Below, piece by piece: positions 5,501 to 51,860 of a stretch of DNA of 64,000 bases. Made by a program: the position numbers and the translations under genes. Under the pieces are notes generated by a model. The model worked only from the letters and a program-made list of their open reading frames with translations, was not told where the DNA came from and searched no databases. The number at the start of each line of letters is the position of its first letter. The stretch's first letter is position 1. Source of the stretch: Bacteroidota bacterium (GTDB taxonomy: Bacteria > Bacteroidota > Ignavibacteria > Ignavibacteriales > Melioribacteraceae). The stretch is from contig JAKAKD010000083.1 in NCBI GenBank assembly GCA_021824635.1, forward strand, positions 1 to 64,000. The letters run 5' to 3'.

Positions 5501-5953
5501 GTGAGAACGAAATGAATGTAATCCCAGCTTTCGTCCGTAACCGTCATCAATGGCTTCAACATATTTTACTGTCGGCACTACGCTTTCTAACCCAAGAGTA
5601 TTTAAGTATTTCATCGCGTCAAGAGTAAGAAACAGATTGCCGCCGTTCTTAATATAATTTTTAAGAGCGGAAATAAAATGTGGATCTGTTTCTTCTTTCG
5701 TCAACTCAGTTGAGTCGGGGCGGTGAATCCAGATAATTTTATAATTGTGAATTGAGAATTGATAATTGATAATTTGATTTGTGTTAATTAATTCTGTTTT
5801 AAAAGCTTTATCATTTTTCAGAAATTCATATGCGGCTTTTACTTCGGGGTTATTTTCAATGGCGTTATTAAAATCCGTGAATCCGACTTTTATTTGCGCC
5901 GATATGGTCATTGATAAAAAAAAGAAAAGAATAAGAGGGAGTTTGACGCGCAT
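2591..5953 (-). CDS. Large secreted glycosidase: amidotransferase-like N-terminal domain plus six-hairpin (debranching-enzyme-like) domain
   Basis: 1120 residues with a Sec signal peptide (about 1-19). Residues about 20-235 look like a ThuA/class I glutamine-amidotransferase-like domain with no obvious catalytic Cys. The middle is a beta-rich region. Residues about 540-930 match the alpha/alpha toroid of amylo-alpha-1,6-glucosidase/GH15-type enzymes; visible motifs are WYFGRDGVW, DAADATPLY, WVEGGG and GYHTGSVWP. The C-terminal part is beta-sandwich-like. GGAG lies just before the ATG. The gene follows the S9 peptidase gene and precedes the GH3 gene by 46 bp, which suggests joint use of imported or extracellular glycans. 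Two degenerate short-period repeat arrays lie inside the reading frame, one near residue 65 and one near residue 1000. The exact glycoside family is not certain. Confidence 0.8.
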   Translation of the reverse strand: MRVKLPLILFFFLSMTISAQIKVGFTDFNNAIENNPEVKAAYEFLKNDKAFKTELINTNQIINYQFSIHNYKIIWIHRPDSTELTKEETDPHFISALKNYIKNGGNLFLTLDAMKYLNTLGLESVVPTVKYVEAIDDGYGRKLGLHSFRSHPIFNGLNGGAYIFNPIQDMKTRQIGFFGEAIPQNGKVIAVDWAYINMKEDLRLAVEYKFGKGKILAVGAYTYFSIKNNSSDHLELFTQNCMNYLAGKYDKEIKRYWNYKPVQVLLSEIKIDKAVSVSSLKATTWKNNSASLKLVNETATDNYWNVAGQRMLVMGKEKAGIDEIWAHPFMALRDYETGIVKDDSVLWLKNIPTKVEVKPESFMRTYKLGNSILTEIITTSITKPTAIVHYELRGNVSLKLVVRFKSNLRFMWPYSEKTTGSIYYSWNDALNAFVVKNESGDFVSVVGADKKPVDRNIGHFENFDSHLIGISTENSQIAACSQFNLGPNDNLDIVISASNEGIHKTINEYRSAISNPENVFNSAIDYTHKFFNNSLMITTPDKDFNEGYRWALVGTDRFFVNTPGIGKSLVAGYSTTAKGWDGGQKINGRPGYAWYFGRDGVWSSFALLDYGDFEKVKLVLEFFNKYQDLNGKIFHELTTSGAVHYDAADATPLYIILAGRYLQHTGDVEFIKQNWTHIKKAIDFCYSTDTDKDHLIENTNVGHGWVEGGGLYTAHTEVYLAACWSEALNEARRMAKAIGSNEESKKYDDESRTVKKIINDEFWNKGNDFLSFSKMKDGKFNSEKTVLAAVPVYFDMLESTKAKKVVNAFAENYFSSDWGVRILREDSPIFNPRGYHTGSVWPLFTGWSALAEYKNGNAVQGFTHVMNNLLVYKNWQLGFMEEVLNGAEYKPSGVCSHQAWSETMVLQPAIEGMLGLEVDAQKNILKLSPRFPADWNWVKVEQIKIGNAFVNFEMKRENGKTEFNFTSPSSCPIQIEFNPSFANGTKLNNLFINGKQTAIEQLNNSTIHLSLVLYKSCKIEILHSGGISVLPEIVLPKPNDSSKGFRILSDKLEGKIYSIEVQGKSGSTNEMKVYCADNKITNAENGKIISLDGSVYKIAVEFEKSSSKYLNKTVKLKLEH
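2932..2963. repeat. Octamer array inside a coding sequence
   Basis: Four consecutive 8-bp units read GAATTGTT, GAATTGTT, CAATTGCT and CGATTGCA. They lie in frame in the C-terminal part of the large glycosidase gene and encode an N/Q/T/I-rich stretch. Unit and period are seen directly; how the array arose is unknown. Confidence 0.6.
5741..5775. repeat. Heptad (7-bp period) array inside a coding sequence
   Basis: Five 7-bp units: ATAATTG, TGAATTG, AGAATTG, ATAATTG, ATAATTT. The array is in frame in the N-terminal domain of the large glycosidase and encodes NYQFSIHNY on the coding strand, which is almost G-free here. A closely matching array occurs in the Memo-like gene near 16.3 kb. Confidence 0.75.
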
Positions 5954-15302: not shown

Positions 15303-16375
15303 TTTTTATTTCCCATATATAATCCTTCTGTAAACCAGCCGCACCAGTGCCTGTATGAAAACACGGCTGTTAATCCCATGCTTGTATTTTTAACGGGTAA
15401 AACTTTTTCTGTAAACGTATCCGAATATTTAAATAGTTTTCCATAAAGTCCACCTTTATCAAATTCATTAAGAATTTTTGTAACTGTTAGAAGACCGAGT
15501 GTAATCGGATATCTTCCGCACCAAATTGGAATTGGTTTTTTATTTGTTGAATCCGGCCAGAGTTCCGTTGTTAATTTTTTAATGCCGGTATGATTTATTA
15601 CTCCGGCAAGATTTTGTTTTAAGATCCTTCGATCATTTTCTGTTGCAAGTTTATGTGCGTTCGCATCTAAACCATACGGGGAATTGTTGAAATCTTCTCC
15701 GTAATGATTTGCATCGTTCGAAATAAGAAAGAAAATATCTTTACCCAATTCAAGTTTATTTGCGCGGATATATTCCGAAATAATTTGCATCAGCCGAGTA
15801 CTCATCTCGTCCACTCTTTCAAACGGCATTTGTGTTACCATTATAGGTGTAATTTTTATATCTCTGTTATAATATTGCAGAAACGGAATCAGTGCCTCAA
15901 TCGAATGCTCTATGCTGTGTGCTTTATTGCTGACGATATAATCATCTTTCGGCAATTTGGATTTTATAATTTCCCGCAGCGGTGATACTTCTACATCTTT
16001 GTATGGTCCGCGCCATTTATCAAACTCATCAAGAATTAAAACGTTGGAAAGAACCCCCATCTCTTTGCGAACAGAGCCGTGCGTAACACCGAAGATAACA
16101 ACTTCCTTTGTTTTAATGTTTTTGTATAACGGATAATAAACATTTCCTGCATAGAGATAATCATCGTGAACAGAAATTGCCGCAACCAAATTTTTTGATT
16201 CTTCCTTTAGTTTGCCTGAATTTTCTTTTGACAGATAATCCACGAAATGATTCATCTCGCCAGCATCCCAGCAAAAGCCAATGTTATCGCGTATTGGACG
16301 TATAGTTTGGGAATTGATAATGGCGAATTGAGAATTGAGAATTAGAATAACAAAAAAATATAGTAATAATTTCAT
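15299..16375 (-). CDS. Memo-family protein (AmmeMemoRadiSam system protein B-like), exported
   Basis: 358 residues. The Memo domain is recognisable from HDDYLYAG, FGVTHGS and SNDANHYGEDF, the positions where the family has its conserved metal-site-like residues. Unlike most family members it begins with a hydrophobic signal-like segment. Part of that segment (NSQFAIINSQ) is encoded by a heptad DNA array. It is the first gene of a two-gene operon with a methyltransferase. The radical-SAM and AMMECR1 partners of the classical trio are not in the window. Confidence 0.85.
   Translation of the reverse strand: MKLLLYFFVILILNSQFAIINSQTIRPIRDNIGFCWDAGEMNHFVDYLSKENSGKLKEESKNLVAAISVHDDYLYAGNVYYPLYKNIKTKEVVIFGVTHGSVRKEMGVLSNVLILDEFDKWRGPYKDVEVSPLREIIKSKLPKDDYIVSNKAHSIEHSIEALIPFLQYYNRDIKITPIMVTQMPFERVDEMSTRLMQIISEYIRANKLELGKDIFFLISNDANHYGEDFNNSPYGLDANAHKLATENDRRILKQNLAGVINHTGIKKLTTELWPDSTNKKPIPIWCGRYPITLGLLTVTKILNEFDKGGLYGKLFKYSDTFTEKVLPVKNTSMGLTAVFSYRHWCGWFTEGLYMGNKN
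16310..16344. repeat. Heptad array in the signal-peptide region of the Memo-like gene
   Basis: Five 7-bp units: GGAATTG, ATAATGG, CGAATTG, AGAATTG, AGAATTA. In the minus-strand gene they encode NSQFAIINSQ, in the same register as the array in the large glycosidase gene. Confidence 0.75.
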
Positions 16376-31636: not shown

Positions 31637-33088
31637 ATGCAAAAACAAGAACGAATGAATAAAAAAATTAAAGTACTCTGCTTTACCGACGATGTTGCGG
31701 GACGTGATGTAGAGATGATGCTTCCTATCCGCTATTTTGCAGAACGGTTTCTAAATTGCGAATTCTATCACGCACTCAATATTGATATCCATGAGATATA
31801 CCGTCAGCGTCCGGATATAATTCTTCAAGCGAATACTATTGGTTCCAATTTGTATTTTGAAATTTCAAAAATTGCGCATGAGCAGAACATTCCAATATTC
31901 GCTCTTATCTCAGAAGGAAATTTTAGAACAGACGGGAGCTTTGATTATTGGGGTTTCAACCGCGATAAGAAATTCTATCAAGAATATGTATGTTGTTGGA
32001 GCGAACGCACAGCGGAATATTTAAGGAAGGAAGTTCCGGAAGCAAAAGACAAAATTGTTGTAACAGGCGGCGTTGGATTTGACCGTTACATCATTTATAA
32101 ATATTTAAGCAAAGAAAATTTTCTTCGCAAGTACAGCATGACGCATTTTTCAAAAATTATCGGTTATGCTGGATGGGCATTCGGCAAACTCGATCACAAA
32201 CGCGGAAAAAACGAATTGCTTGTCTGGGCAAGAGGCGACAAGAACAAACTAATCTGGATAGAAGAACAGCGCAAAAAAGTTAGAGATATTTTAAAGCAGG
32301 CAATTGAAAATAATCCGTCAACTTTATTTATTCTAAAACAGCATCCGCAAGAGAATTCACCGGAAAGAACGGAGCCCGTAAAGAATGAAATGAGTGAACT
32401 CGCACATTATAAAAACGTTCTCTACTTATGCGGCGAAGAATCAATTCATGATCTGATCAGCGTTTCGGATTTATGGACTTGCTTCGAATCTACTTCCGCG
32501 CTTGAATGCTGGTTAATGGACAAGCAAACAATTTTCATTAATCCGGAAAAAGATTTCAATCGCGATCAACTTTACAAAGGTTCTGCGTTAATTCAAAATT
32601 ATGACGAGTTCCAGAAATTGATTGACGAATTTTACTCGGGCGGTAGAATTGAACAATTCTTTGAAAAAGAAAAATCGGCAATAAGAAATGAATTGATTAA
32701 AAACGTAATCGGCTTTGGCGATGGACTCAATCATATCCGCGCTGGATACTATCTCCAAAAAACAATTGACAATTATTTTAGAGCCAGCAACCGACAACAA
32801 GTGACTGATAACCGATCACCAATCACAAATCACAAATCACTGTACAATTTTCATCTTTGGCATTTTTTAGTTTACTATTTAATTAGAATCGCCGGACCGT
32901 TTTACAACCGCGCGCTTTATTCACGCCTTTATAAATTCAACAAACATCTCTGGGTATTTGAAAATTACAGAATGACTAAATTGCATGAACTGTATAAAAG
33001 ATATGTTCCATTTTTTGAAGAATTTTATAAAGCCAGGAATATTGAAGAGCGATATAAAGAAAATTCACTTTTCAAGAATCTTTTATAA
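31637..33088 (+). CDS. Surface carbohydrate biosynthesis protein (GT-B fold)
   Basis: 483 residues. It resembles the 'surface carbohydrate biosynthesis protein' group related to CDP-glycerol glycerophosphotransferases: ILQANTIGSNLYFEISKIA, SEGNFR, VTGGVGFDRY, LKQHPQENSPER and SVSDLWTCFESTSALECW. Probably transfers a sugar or sugar-like acid; given the downstream pathway, pseudaminic acid is a candidate donor (inference). A second ATG six codons in could be the real start. A heptad DNA array inserts a polar stretch at about residue 385-403, just before a C-terminal helical region. Confidence 0.8.
   Translation: MQKQERMNKKIKVLCFTDDVAGRDVEMMLPIRYFAERFLNCEFYHALNIDIHEIYRQRPDIILQANTIGSNLYFEISKIAHEQNIPIFALISEGNFRTDGSFDYWGFNRDKKFYQEYVCCWSERTAEYLRKEVPEAKDKIVVTGGVGFDRYIIYKYLSKENFLRKYSMTHFSKIIGYAGWAFGKLDHKRGKNELLVWARGDKNKLIWIEEQRKKVRDILKQAIENNPSTLFILKQHPQENSPERTEPVKNEMSELAHYKNVLYLCGEESIHDLISVSDLWTCFESTSALECWLMDKQTIFINPEKDFNRDQLYKGSALIQNYDEFQKLIDEFYSGGRIEQFFEKEKSAIRNELIKNVIGFGDGLNHIRAGYYLQKTIDNYFRASNRQQVTDNRSPITNHKSLYNFHLWHFLVYYLIRIAGPFYNRALYSRLYKFNKHLWVFENYRMTKLHELYKRYVPFFEEFYKARNIEERYKENSLFKNLL
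32789..32844. repeat. Heptad array inside the surface carbohydrate protein gene
   Basis: Eight 7-bp units: AACCGAC, AACAAGT, GACTGAT, AACCGAT, CACCAAT, CACAAAT, CACAAAT, CACTGTA. In frame, it encodes a polar N/R/Q/T/S/H stretch that looks like an insertion between two folded parts. Confidence 0.8.
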
Positions 33089-33198: not shown

Positions 33199-34230
33199 AT
33201 GGAAGGCAAAACCATTCTTATAACCGGCGGAACGGGCTCTTTCGGAAAAAAATTTATTGAAACAGTTCTAAAACGTTTCAATCCGAAAAAAATTATCGTT
33301 TACAGCCGAGACGAACTGAAGCAATATGAAATGCAGCAAGACGTACGCTTTAGAAAAGAAGGCGTTTTGATGCGCTATTTTATTGGAGATGTGCGCGATG
33401 AAAAAAGATTAACACGGGCAATGGAAGGAATTGACATTGTTGTTCACGCCGCCGCTCTTAAACAAGTGCCTGCCGCAGAGTACAATCCTTTTGAAGCAGT
33501 TAAGACAAATATCATCGGCGGACAAAATGTAATTAATGCATGCATTGACAGCGGAGTGAAAAAGGTAATTGCGCTTAGTACTGATAAAGCCGCCGCACCT
33601 ATTAATCTTTATGGCGCAACTAAATTAACTTCCGACAAGCTTTTCATTGCCGCAAATAATTTTAGAGGAACCCACGATATAAAATTTTCTGTCGTTCGTT
33701 ACGGAAATGTTATGGGAAGCCGCGGTTCTGTTATTCCATTTTTTATTGAAAAGAAAAAAACCGGCGTTCTTCCGGTTACAGACAAACGAATGACCCGCTT
33801 TAATATTACTCTTCAAGAAGGTGTTGATTTTGTTCTTGATTCTTTTGATAGAATGTGGGGCGGTGAGTTATTTGTTCCCAAAATTCCTTCGTTCAAGATT
33901 TTGGATCTAGCCGAAGCAATCGCACCGGGGATTAAAATCGAAGAAGTAGGAATTCGTCCCGGTGAAAAAATTCACGAAGAGATGATAACCGAGGCAGATG
34001 CGGTAAGCACAATTCAATTTGAAAAATATTTTGTCATTCTTCCCTCTGTTCAGCTGGGTGATTCGGAACAATTAAAATTATGGAACACAGAAAAATTTAG
34101 AACCACAAGCAATTCCAAACCCGGAAAGTTTTGTAACGACAACTTCAGATATAACAGCGGAACAAATGAGTGGTTTCTTTCTGTTGAGGAATTGAGAGAA
34201 CTAATAAAGAAGAATGTGATTGGTGATTAG
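33199..34230 (+). CDS. pseB: UDP-GlcNAc 4,6-dehydratase (inverting), PseB
   Basis: First step of CMP-pseudaminic acid synthesis: UDP-GlcNAc to UDP-2-acetamido-2,6-dideoxy-beta-L-arabino-hexos-4-ulose. 343 residues, extended SDR fold. The NADP-binding loop TGGTGSFGKKF is at residues 9-19. Lys in LYGATKLTSDK replaces the usual YxxxK Tyr region, as in FlaA1-type dehydratases. A strong GAGG precedes the ATG. The last codons and the stop are made by a heptad DNA array, so the C-terminus may have been reshaped by that insertion. Confidence 0.95.
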   Translation: MEGKTILITGGTGSFGKKFIETVLKRFNPKKIIVYSRDELKQYEMQQDVRFRKEGVLMRYFIGDVRDEKRLTRAMEGIDIVVHAAALKQVPAAEYNPFEAVKTNIIGGQNVINACIDSGVKKVIALSTDKAAAPINLYGATKLTSDKLFIAANNFRGTHDIKFSVVRYGNVMGSRGSVIPFFIEKKKTGVLPVTDKRMTRFNITLQEGVDFVLDSFDRMWGGELFVPKIPSFKILDLAEAIAPGIKIEEVGIRPGEKIHEEMITEADAVSTIQFEKYFVILPSVQLGDSEQLKLWNTEKFRTTSNSKPGKFCNDNFRYNSGTNEWFLSVEELRELIKKNVIGD

Positions 34231-34243
34231 TTATTGGTGATTA
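34216..34243. repeat. Heptad array, left flank of the S23-like gene
   Basis: Four 7-bp units: GTGATTG, GTGATTA, GTTATTG, GTGATTA. It covers the 3' end of pseB and the gap before the small four-helix-bundle gene. It is inverted relative to the array after that gene. Confidence 0.8.
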
Positions 34244-34246
34244 ATC

Positions 34247-34618
34247 ATGACTAGCATTAAATCTTTTCATGATCTGGAGATATGGAAATTATCCCATCAG
34301 CTTGTTTTAGAAGTTTATAAAATCTCGAAAATGTTTCCTAAGGAAGAAAATTTTCGAATTACTTCTCAGTTAATAAGAGCATCATATTCTATTCCTTCAA
34401 ACATTGCCGAGGGAATGGGTAGATACACAAGAAAAGAATTTGTAAATTTTCTTACTATTGCCCGCGGCTCCGTTGAAGAATGCAAATACTTAATTTTACT
34501 CACCAAGGATTTAGGTTATATATCCAAAGTCATATTTACTGAATTAACATTAAAATATGATTCTCTGGGCAAAATGATTAATTCATTAATTAATTCTTTA
34601 AAAAGTAAACCAGTGTAG
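34247..34618 (+). CDS. Four-helix-bundle protein (S23/23S rRNA intervening-sequence family, Avd-like fold)
   Basis: 123 residues. Family hallmarks are clear: FHDLEIWKLSHQL near the start, then RASYSIPSNIAEGMGR, EFVNFLTIARGSVEECKY and a Leu/Ile-rich last helix. The family forms pentameric bundles, is related to the Avd accessory protein of diversity-generating retroelements, and was first found in 23S rRNA intervening sequences; its chromosomal role is unknown. It splits pseB from pseC, is not a pathway enzyme and is bracketed by inverted heptad arrays. It therefore looks like an inserted cassette. No reverse transcriptase is in the window. Confidence 0.92.
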   Translation: MTSIKSFHDLEIWKLSHQLVLEVYKISKMFPKEENFRITSQLIRASYSIPSNIAEGMGRYTRKEFVNFLTIARGSVEECKYLILLTKDLGYISKVIFTELTLKYDSLGKMINSLINSLKSKPV

Positions 34619-34624
34619 TCCAAC

Positions 34625-35842
34625 ATGAATAAAAAACAACCAACATCTAATAACCAATCACCAACAACCAAGATATATTCTTACGGCAAACAAACAATTG
34701 ACGATGCCGATATTCAATCAGTTGTTGAAACACTTAAAAGCGACTGGCTTACGCAAGGTCCAACTATACAAAAATTCGAACAAGCGTTGAACGAAAAGTT
34801 CGGCGGCAAATATGCATCTGCGGTTGCCACAGGAACTGCCGGGCTTCATCTTATTGCAATGGGTTTAGGATGGAAGAAAGATGATATAGTGATAACATCG
34901 CCCATAACATTTCTAGCAAGTGCAAATTGTGCGGTTTATACAGGCGCTACGCCCGACTTTGCGGACATAAATGAATCAACTTACACTATTGATCCGAATG
35001 AGCTTGAGTGGAAACTGAAACAATATTCTATTCGAAACAGAAAAGTAAAAGCTGTGGTAGCCGTTGATTATGCCGGTCATCCTTGCGATTGGGATGCGCT
35101 TAGATCGTTACAAGACAAGTACGGTTTTCAACTTGTTAATGATTTTTGCCATGCGCCCGGCGCCGAATATAAAGATGACTTTAAATACGCGGCAAAATAT
35201 GCCGATGCTGTAAATATGAGTTTTCACCCGGTTAAACATTTTACAACGGGCGAAGGCGGCGCAGTATTATCTAACGATGAATCGCTCGATCATAGAATCA
35301 AAACATTGCGCTCACACGGAATGACAAAAGATGAATCTATACTTGAAAAGAACGACGGACCATGGTATTACGAAATGCATCAAGTTGGATTTAATTATCG
35401 GATAACTGATTTCCAGTGCGCGCTGGGAATTAGTCAACTAAAAAAAATTGATCCGTTCATCGAAAAACGAAGAGCGATAGCAAAATACTACGATGATTTT
35501 TTCGGAAAAGATGATAGATTTATTATACCCTACGTTTCGGAAGATTATAAACACGCTTATCATCTTTATCCTCTTCAGATTAAATTTGACGAGTTAAATA
35601 TTTCAAAGAAAGTATTTTTTTCGAAGATGAAAGAAAAAAATATTTTATTGCAGGTTCATTATGTGCCGGTTCATCTTCAGCCGTTCTACAGAAATAATTT
35701 TGGATTTAAGCATGGCGACTTTCCGATTGCGGAAATATTTTATGAAAGAGAATTATCAATCCCTATGTATCCAACGCTTTTAAATGAGGATCTGGATTAC
35801 ATTACGAGATCAATTATTGAAACTCTGGATAAAATGAAATGA
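34625..35842 (+). CDS. pseC: UDP-4-amino-4,6-dideoxy-N-acetyl-beta-L-altrosamine transaminase, PseC
   Basis: Second step of the pseudaminic acid pathway: PLP-dependent transfer of an amino group to C4 of the PseB product. 405 residues, DegT/DnrJ/EryC1 aminotransferase family. The PLP Lys204 is in FHPVKHFTTGEGG, with TGTAGLHL for phosphate contact near the N-terminus. The first 15 or so codons come from a heptad DNA array (QPTSNNQSPTTK), and the conserved enzyme begins at YSYGKQTI. It overlaps the next gene by 4 bp. Confidence 0.95.
   Translation: MNKKQPTSNNQSPTTKIYSYGKQTIDDADIQSVVETLKSDWLTQGPTIQKFEQALNEKFGGKYASAVATGTAGLHLIAMGLGWKKDDIVITSPITFLASANCAVYTGATPDFADINESTYTIDPNELEWKLKQYSIRNRKVKAVVAVDYAGHPCDWDALRSLQDKYGFQLVNDFCHAPGAEYKDDFKYAAKYADAVNMSFHPVKHFTTGEGGAVLSNDESLDHRIKTLRSHGMTKDESILEKNDGPWYYEMHQVGFNYRITDFQCALGISQLKKIDPFIEKRRAIAKYYDDFFGKDDRFIIPYVSEDYKHAYHLYPLQIKFDELNISKKVFFSKMKEKNILLQVHYVPVHLQPFYRNNFGFKHGDFPIAEIFYERELSIPMYPTLLNEDLDYITRSIIETLDKMK
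34636..34670. repeat. Heptad array, right flank of the S23-like gene, in the pseC start
   Basis: Five 7-bp units: ACAACCA, ACATCTA, ATAACCA, ATCACCA, ACAACCA. It is the inverted counterpart of the array before the S23-like gene and encodes the non-conserved N-terminus of PseC. Confidence 0.8.
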
Positions 35843-51810: not shown

Positions 51811-51852
51811 AGTAACAAGTATTTAGTAGTTAGTATTTAGCTGTTAGAAGAT
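51811..51852. repeat. Heptad array between ruvC and ruvA
   Basis: Six 7-bp units: AGTAACA, AGTATTT, AGTAGTT, AGTATTT, AGCTGTT, AGAAGAT. It fills nearly the whole 52-bp gap and would separate or link translation of the two genes. Confidence 0.8.
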
Positions 51853-51860
51853 ACGATTTG

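Follow-up and report, generated by a model that had tools for sequence, protein, structure and literature searches.

Intervening sequences (IVSs) of 23S rRNA genes have been described as selfish, with an open reading frame (ORF) that decays, and in the IVS of Coxiella an S23-family ORF lies within a 28-bp terminal stem that is cut by RNase III (PMC4990558). Heptameric repeats are known as the short tandemly repeated repetitive (STRR) sequences of cyanobacteria, the GGGAATC repeat of Xanthomonas, the TAACTGA repeat of Beggiatoaceae and P6b of the Nostoc tRNA-Leu intron (PMC4692102, PMC4679880, PMC3488679); their excess in bacteria has been attributed to slippage (PMC4692102, PMC4679880), and one heptanucleotide repeat cited from Helicobacter pylori has the word GTGATTA (PMC4692102). 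In the present study, we analysed a stretch of 64,000 nucleotides from an Ignavibacteria genome (Bacteroidota bacterium, contig JAKAKD010000083.1, positions 1 to 64,000; hereafter the window), in which the identical word GTGATTA belongs to one of two inverse arrays bracketing an S23 gene that sits between pseB and pseC and not inside 23S rRNA. With moderate confidence, we interpret an S23 gene between inverse degenerate arrays of 7-nt (or 8-nt) words as a mobile, probably selfish, IVS-like cassette whose arms are kept alike by copying at the DNA level.

The forward-strand ORF at 34247..34618 encodes a four-helix-bundle protein of 123 aa belonging to the S23 / 23S rRNA intervening-sequence-protein family, and it matches PF05635 with 134.4 bits (cut-off 33.8) and TIGR02436 with 129.1 bits (cut-off 24). 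Its left array (34216..34243, forward strand) consists of the words GTGATTG, GTGATTA, GTTATTG and GTGATTA and matches inversely the right array (34636..34671, forward strand), which consists of ACAACCA, ACATCTA, ATAACCA, ATCACCA and ACAACCA; Tandem Repeats Finder placed the former at 34216-34242 with period 7, and the latter at 34638-34671 with period 7 and at 34635-34671 with period 14. The inverse flank-to-flank alignment spans 23 columns with a score of 31, which was attained by 0.2% of 4000 random window segments of the same size (average 18.0), while the top inverse flank score among 36 ordinary ORFs of at least 200 aa was 29. Furthermore, the pattern ATCACCAATCACCAATCA, allowing up to 3 mismatches, hit the genome 20 times, as against 3 hits for its reversed control. 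On folding 34200-34680 as RNA, the arms were paired (z -2.5; 3/100 shuffles folded equally well), whereas an equal-size upstream control gave z 0.37. The gene between inverse period-7 arrays, as drawn in the initial annotation from the letters alone, is thereby borne out.

The arrays also reach into both neighbouring genes on the forward strand. The last codons of pseB (33199..34230; 343 aa, equivalog TIGR03589, 518 bits) are supplied by the left array, and in pseC (34625..35842; TIGR03588, 460 bits) the profile match starts at residue 19 and the right array is translated into the first ~14 residues. In four element-free relatives PseB terminates at residue 340-341 and PseC is alignable only from residue 15-18. 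The protein ends encoded in the window are translated array, just as had been proposed.

The bracketed layout, with words specific to each locus, is a general rule across S23 loci. For every locus, the left flank was compared with the inverse of its own right flank and, by permutation, with the flanks of other S23 loci, and single loci were judged by their percentile (95th, 99th) among mismatched flank pairs. The own genome (3.06 Mb, 107 contigs) holds 16 PF05635 matches, two of which coincide, so that 15 loci were tested; own arms averaged 28.5 and other arms 19.3 (0/100000 permutations as high), and 9/15 loci, or 8/14 when the window locus was excluded, were singly above the 95th percentile. 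From locus to locus of this genome the arm words vary, and in those loci that stand out the layout is the same. When relatives were included, 66 of 69 S23 hits were tested (one double was omitted and two with short or N flanks were dropped), with 30.7 for own and 18.5 for other arms (0/20000 permutations), 44 loci above the 95th and 24 above the 99th percentile; in direct orientation the values were merely 21.8 vs 18.5. A multi-phylum set, built from the best 80 of 589 confirmed loci in named genomes, provided 89 S23 hits, 88 of them tested, under titles of Bacteroidetes, KSB1, Desulfobacteraceae, Planctomycetes, Acidobacteria, Anaerolineae, Campylobacteraceae, SAR324, Nitrospinota, Atribacterota and candidate phyla. 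Its own arms scored 34.2 and other arms 18.0 (0/20000 permutations), and 64 loci exceeded the 95th and 36 the 99th percentile; one locus is common to both sets, as L087 of the multi-phylum set (an Ignavibacteria metagenome-assembled genome) has the flanks of the relatives' L047. Additionally, ten of 30 S23-bearing plasmid records, all ten cyanobacterial, gave 43.0 vs 19.7 (0/20000 permutations), with seven loci above the 95th percentile. Across the sets, about two thirds of the loci stand out singly.

On two of the cyanobacterial plasmids, S23 lies between cas6 and cas4 (L371:310-2558 and L376:386-2550); the arms of L371 match inversely (score 53), and those of L376, which is flanked by long AAAGCTA-type arrays, hardly do so (15). 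A '23S rRNA IVP', that is, an intervening-sequence protein, is named in a legend that deals with CRISPR-linked domains (PMC10910872), and the position between cas genes may account for that entry.

A tandem 7-nt period, as in the heptameric repeats and STRR sequences, is present in the window array and prevails elsewhere: among 153 loci the best period was 7 in 71, 8 in 23, 9 in 3, 5 in 1 and 6 in 1, and in 125 paired control windows ~900 bp off it was 7 in 6 and 5 in 1, with none in 118. On the S23 strand, G is enriched in left arms (mean GC skew +0.31, with positive values at 130/153 loci), and right arms are opposite (negative at 109/153). Left windows with stops in all three frames amounted to 50%, with 31% expected; that these stops are the cause of period 7 is suggestive only. 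A contrast of transitions with transversions proved uninformative, with 36-39% transitions in the arms, 41-51% at fourfold sites of pseB and 32% for random composition.

Within an element, both arms draw on one vocabulary of words peculiar to the locus; the words turn over, and the arms remain matched. Word similarity across loci was measured by setting the left arm of one locus against the inverse right arm of a second, a comparison that homology of the adjoining genes cannot inflate. High similarity was found in 83% of 30 element pairs with S23 identity above 85%, in 29% of 233 pairs at 60-70% and in ~2% below 50%; word sharing is thus confined to S23s above ~60% identity. A recognition code linking protein and word at greater depth was sought and rejected, since the Mantel value below 45% S23 identity was -0.04 and 881/1000 null values were as high. 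We further compared own with swapped arms in non-independent pairs drawn from 165 elements. At 60-70% S23 identity own arms were better in 213 and worse in 23 of 238 pairs, at 70-80% there were 33 wins and 11 losses (46 pairs), and at 80-90% 15 wins and 10 losses (26 pairs); by junction, own and swapped arms averaged 45.8 vs 32.7 at locus 1 and 36.7 vs 24.4 at the leuC junction.

Comparison of gene junctions among relatives revealed the cassette to be present or absent at the same position. In the pseB|pseC series of 17 loci (G003 unreadable; G008 lacking the pseB|pseC pairing), an open S23 stands in G000, G001, G006, G009 and G022, as well as in G020, where the S23 is 41% identical, and a broken one in G010, G007 and G004. 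G005 and G002 hold remnants in which S23 is reduced to its last codons and both arrays are retained. The junction is empty in G013, G016, G018 and G027, by eye without arrays. Locus 1, on contig C87 of the own genome, was followed in 12 genomes (G006 not placed): S23 is present in G000, G001, G002 and G011, the last with both arms grown; G008, G009 and G010 have cargo-less inverse arrays; G003 and G005 have short gaps, and G004 and G007 other sequence, in place of S23. The S23 is thus frequently broken or deleted, with the arrays staying behind.

At the leuC junction, likewise studied in 12 genomes (G002 unplaced; no match in G009), S23 occurs in seven genomes, G010 and G011 carry S23s only 19-25% identical to those, and G005 is empty with a 27-bp gap. 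Different S23s have therefore occupied one junction, which must have been struck at least twice. Moreover, one complete unit is conserved between two species to a much higher degree than the sequence around it: the arm+S23+arm unit of L237/L238 (G010/G011) is 98.3% identical over 516 columns, with flanks at 81.4 and 76.2%. In L003/L049, at a junction that we take to be nuoC|nuoD, arms and S23 are 94-98% and flanks 86-87% identical. The S23 of L237/L238 is a divergent subtype, 99% identical in the shared part. The proposal of an inserted cassette with arrays as its ends stands on the four empty pseB|pseC junctions, the two remnants, the empty site at a second junction and this 98% unit between genomes with flanks of 76-81%.

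Solo arrays and cargo-less hairpins occur in S23-bearing genomes, and none was seen in the S23-free samples. A lag-7 array scan over 748 kb of the own genome, on contigs selected for S23, yielded 27 arrays past the threshold, 8 of them within 150 bp of an S23 gene, a zone of about 0.56% of the sequence; this does not refute the initial annotation, which would have fallen had arrays been no nearer to S23-family genes than to random ones. Six genomes with at least 10 S23 genes contained 36 solo arrays in 1544 kb (array counts 1, 1, 7, 0, 8 and 19 in 100, 100, 100, 100, 398 and 746 kb), the S23-free genomes G013, G041, G043 and G108 contained 0 in 657 kb, and G152, with one S23, contained 0 in 100 kb. 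Array hairpins without S23 in the own genome include those at C87 7282-7355 (DNA fold z -6.6) and at C65 55233-55324 (z -2.9); the latter (L200:15227-15326) lies in frame within a gene, presumably rpiA, and adds a stretch resembling NNGELRINDQNSLSIINYQLS to the enzyme.

In nine of the 19 solo arrays the word is that of L009, an element resident in this genome, which fits them better than any of 2000 random sets, and for the other 10 no own element fits better than chance. This AATTG word is spread genome-wide, with 91 own-genome hits vs 2 for the reversed control; the S23 arms have many private words. Across 12 genomes of the genus it gave 9-154 hits each with 0-2 for the reversed control, except in G006, where the control (28) outnumbers the word (16). 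Within the window, ~8 heptads lie in frame in an upstream BFO_1060-type glycosyltransferase ORF (32781..32850); ten genomes of the genus, the own included, have an array at this site, with the word ATCACCA in five and AATTCTC in five (by eye). Further solo arrays of AATTG words are seen at 5734-5785 and at 16306-16347, the second within a signal-peptide-like start, and a solo GTATTTAG array occupies an intergenic position at 51811-51853, between genes that we read as ruvC and ruvA. When up to 3 kb around the solo arrays was searched for inverse partners, a few candidates emerged, one being a gene between inverse arrays at C92 43385-45538 (score 29 vs control 16). The inverse arrays there (C92 43313-45584, in L192) surround a 717-aa gene that we assume to be M3-peptidase-like and that adjoins its paralogue; this is possibly another cargo, the candidates being too few to name one.

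Intact S23s are under purifying selection. The dN/dS ratio (nonsynonymous to synonymous substitution rates) of the window S23 against its G001 orthologue is 0.049, and it ranged from 0.05 to 0.15 in 11 pairs, dS being saturated in some. PF05635 genes were found in 38 of 39 genomes searched among the relatives, the own included, and in 116 of 148 genomes sampled across the phylum, and the family search had no hit in any of 14 control genomes, Escherichia coli among them; a single S23 query protein gave 0 matches in 50,697 phage records at E 1e-5. Solved structures of S23 relatives exist (2gsc, from the gene XCC0516 of Xanthomonas campestris, and 2rld), and the title of a reference for an S23-type structure speaks of five four-helix bundles (PMC10053308). 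As for the relatedness to Avd of diversity-generating retroelements (DGRs) claimed in the initial annotation, a weak profile match stands; the scores, 31 bits against bAvd and 25.7 against the DGR Avd equivalog, are below the cut-offs of 40 and 80. The ORF between the arms, which is S23 itself, had no transposase profile match, and there is no conserved terminal inverted repeat as in the DDE/insertion-sequence type, the arm words not being conserved between distant copies.

How, then, are the arms kept alike? One rival holds that they form an IVS-like RNA stem, kept complementary by selection on the transcript and cut by RNase III, the arrays being a convenient way of keeping a stem. The pairing of the arms in the fold of 34200-34680 and the precedent of the Coxiella IVS (PMC4990558) speak for it; nevertheless, mismatches between the arms (92/153 loci used) display no G.U asymmetry on the coding strand (151 vs 167, p 0.40), which fits copying at the DNA level better than selection for RNA pairing. 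In addition, arm-to-arm identity (0.785) is close to that of neighbouring units within an arm (0.75), both on stretches selected for high score, which favours exchange of whole words from a shared vocabulary over base-by-base compensation, and a solo array running in one direction lacks any counterpart for pairing. We therefore consider a transcript stem unlikely, and we hold an equally low opinion of the view that S23 is a regulator binding its own word in RNA or DNA, with autoregulatory arms and a regulon of solo arrays. Purifying selection on S23, the L009 word in 9/19 solo arrays and the 91 hits of the AATTG word would suit a regulator; against it, S23s below 50-60% identity share no words, the remaining 10/19 solo arrays match no own element above chance, the orthologous glycosyltransferase site has ATCACCA in five genomes and AATTCTC in five, and arrays sit inside coding frames and signal-peptide-like starts.

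Still less probable is that 7-nt repeats arise anywhere at ordinary slippage hot spots with S23 as a nearby passenger. It is true that the heptameric-repeat excess has been ascribed to slippage (PMC4692102, PMC4679880) and that the majority of arrays lack an S23, but slippage alone cannot give two inverse arrays 400 bp apart that share private words, and both the empty junctions (by eye) and the 657 kb of S23-free genomes are free of arrays. Finally, a DGR-like writer, with S23 acting as Avd and a reverse transcriptase in trans rewriting the arrays, draws on the resemblance of PF05635 to Avd in fold and profile (PMC10053308); it is already largely refuted and we give it almost no credence, for RVT_1 profile searches had no match in G000 (94% complete), in G001 (100% complete, 17 S23 hits) or in G037 (one contig, 19 S23 hits), with matches present in 11/39 genomes searched, and 336/895 arm-to-arm mismatches involve no adenine, so that the variation is not confined to it.

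Several observations must be set against the mobile cassette itself. The arms of 22/66, 24/88 and 3/10 loci in the relatives, multi-phylum and plasmid sets were not above the 95th percentile, and 54/153 loci had no clear period at the threshold. The difference between own and swapped arms is small or nil above 80% S23 identity and absent above 90%, and in the pseB|pseC group own arms (28.7) hardly surpass swapped ones (27.2), so that the window junction alone gives no demonstration of concerted change. An island of identity over arms and S23 appears in just 2/6 orthologous pairs, with little or none in the other four; such islands could be explained by ordinary homologous recombination, and the G010 member of the L237/L238 pair has a short, that is, broken, S23 frame. 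S23 paralogues within the own genome are at most 48% identical, and recent copying inside that genome is thus not indicated. We know of no catalytic site in S23, and hence the moving enzyme is missing. As to solo arrays, 19/27 of the own genome have no neighbouring S23, and S23 was in none of the stretches fetched around 30 AATTG-word loci; the S23-free sample comprises four genomes, two of them GC-rich, and counts in S23-rich genomes vary from 0 to 7 per 100 kb, the own contigs having been picked for S23.

The mobile cassette nonetheless leads to a scenario that needs neither a reverse transcriptase nor a transposase of its own. The arms would form a hairpin in single-stranded DNA, and perhaps in the transcript too, to which a pentameric S23 barrel would bind; replication slippage and template switching within arrays and between arms would expand and exchange 7-nt units, and because units would pass between the arms, both would drift together. 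By stabilising such hairpins, S23 may promote the growth of arrays and, on rare occasions, cause the unit to move, and solo arrays would be by-products or relics of that growth. That S23 binds the arms, that an enzyme inserts the unit and that S23 has a causal role in array writing is what we infer from these patterns. A bolder thought, which we put forward only tentatively and rather doubt, is that the S23/IVP family represents a new kind of element, a small pentamer binding nucleic acid that makes or maintains heptad arrays, copies words between its own arms and seeds solo arrays genome-wide. If true, S23 activity would have left as its footprints the scattered heptameric repeats reported from cyanobacteria, Xanthomonas and others. 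The element that spreads or writes arrays, as conceived in the initial annotation, would be in keeping with the correlation of solo arrays and S23, and its DGR-like form is unsupported, with no RVT_1 match in the own genome; as a whole, that interpretation is partly supported.

For the very common PF05635 genes there is no agreement on function, and the array link provides them with a testable context. It is one possible explanation of the heptameric repeats described independently from several phyla, and it accounts for odd annotations such as protein ends translated from arrays and the occurrence of S23 within pse, leu or cas operons; furthermore, if S23 drives array growth, repeats would be written here by a system that has no reverse transcriptase. 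In the open-access literature searched, subscription papers and preprints lying outside its scope, no linkage of an S23 gene with heptad arrays was found: the terms S23 and four helix are absent from the heptameric-repeat papers PMC4692102, PMC4679880 and PMC2700814, and of two papers that mention four helix bundle proteins (PMC8700078, PMC5524665), the former lacks the terms heptanucleotide, tandem repeat and inverted repeat, and the latter lacks inverted repeat and has tandem repeats in other contexts only. Both S23 with stemmed rRNA intervening sequences and heptameric repeats are known, and nothing in the literature searched joins them, which is no proof of novelty.

Set beside the described systems, the cassette resembles the 23S rRNA IVS in placing an S23-family ORF between complementary ends; unlike it, the element is lodged here among the protein-coding genes of an operon, it terminates in arrays of 7-nt words, each locus has words of its own, which turn over, and the arrays outlast the gene. 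With Avd of DGRs, the window S23 shares distant homology and the four-helix-bundle fold, and it differs by its scores below cut-off, by the lack of a reverse transcriptase in the own genome and by changes that go beyond adenine. Systems of REP-associated tyrosine transposases (RAYT) with repetitive extragenic palindromic (REP) sequences, and those of miniature inverted-repeat transposable elements (MITEs), have a gene between inverse repeats and dispersed gene-less copies. The present layout may be likened to these in outline, although it has no transposase profile and its repeat words are not fixed. With STRR and other heptameric repeats, the arrays have in common tandem 7-nt words that are often degenerate, intergenic or hairpin-forming and, for the AATTG word at least, dispersed (PMC4692102, PMC4679880, PMC3488679); what sets them apart is that here, the S23s of cyanobacterial plasmids included, they constitute the inverse ends of S23 cassettes.

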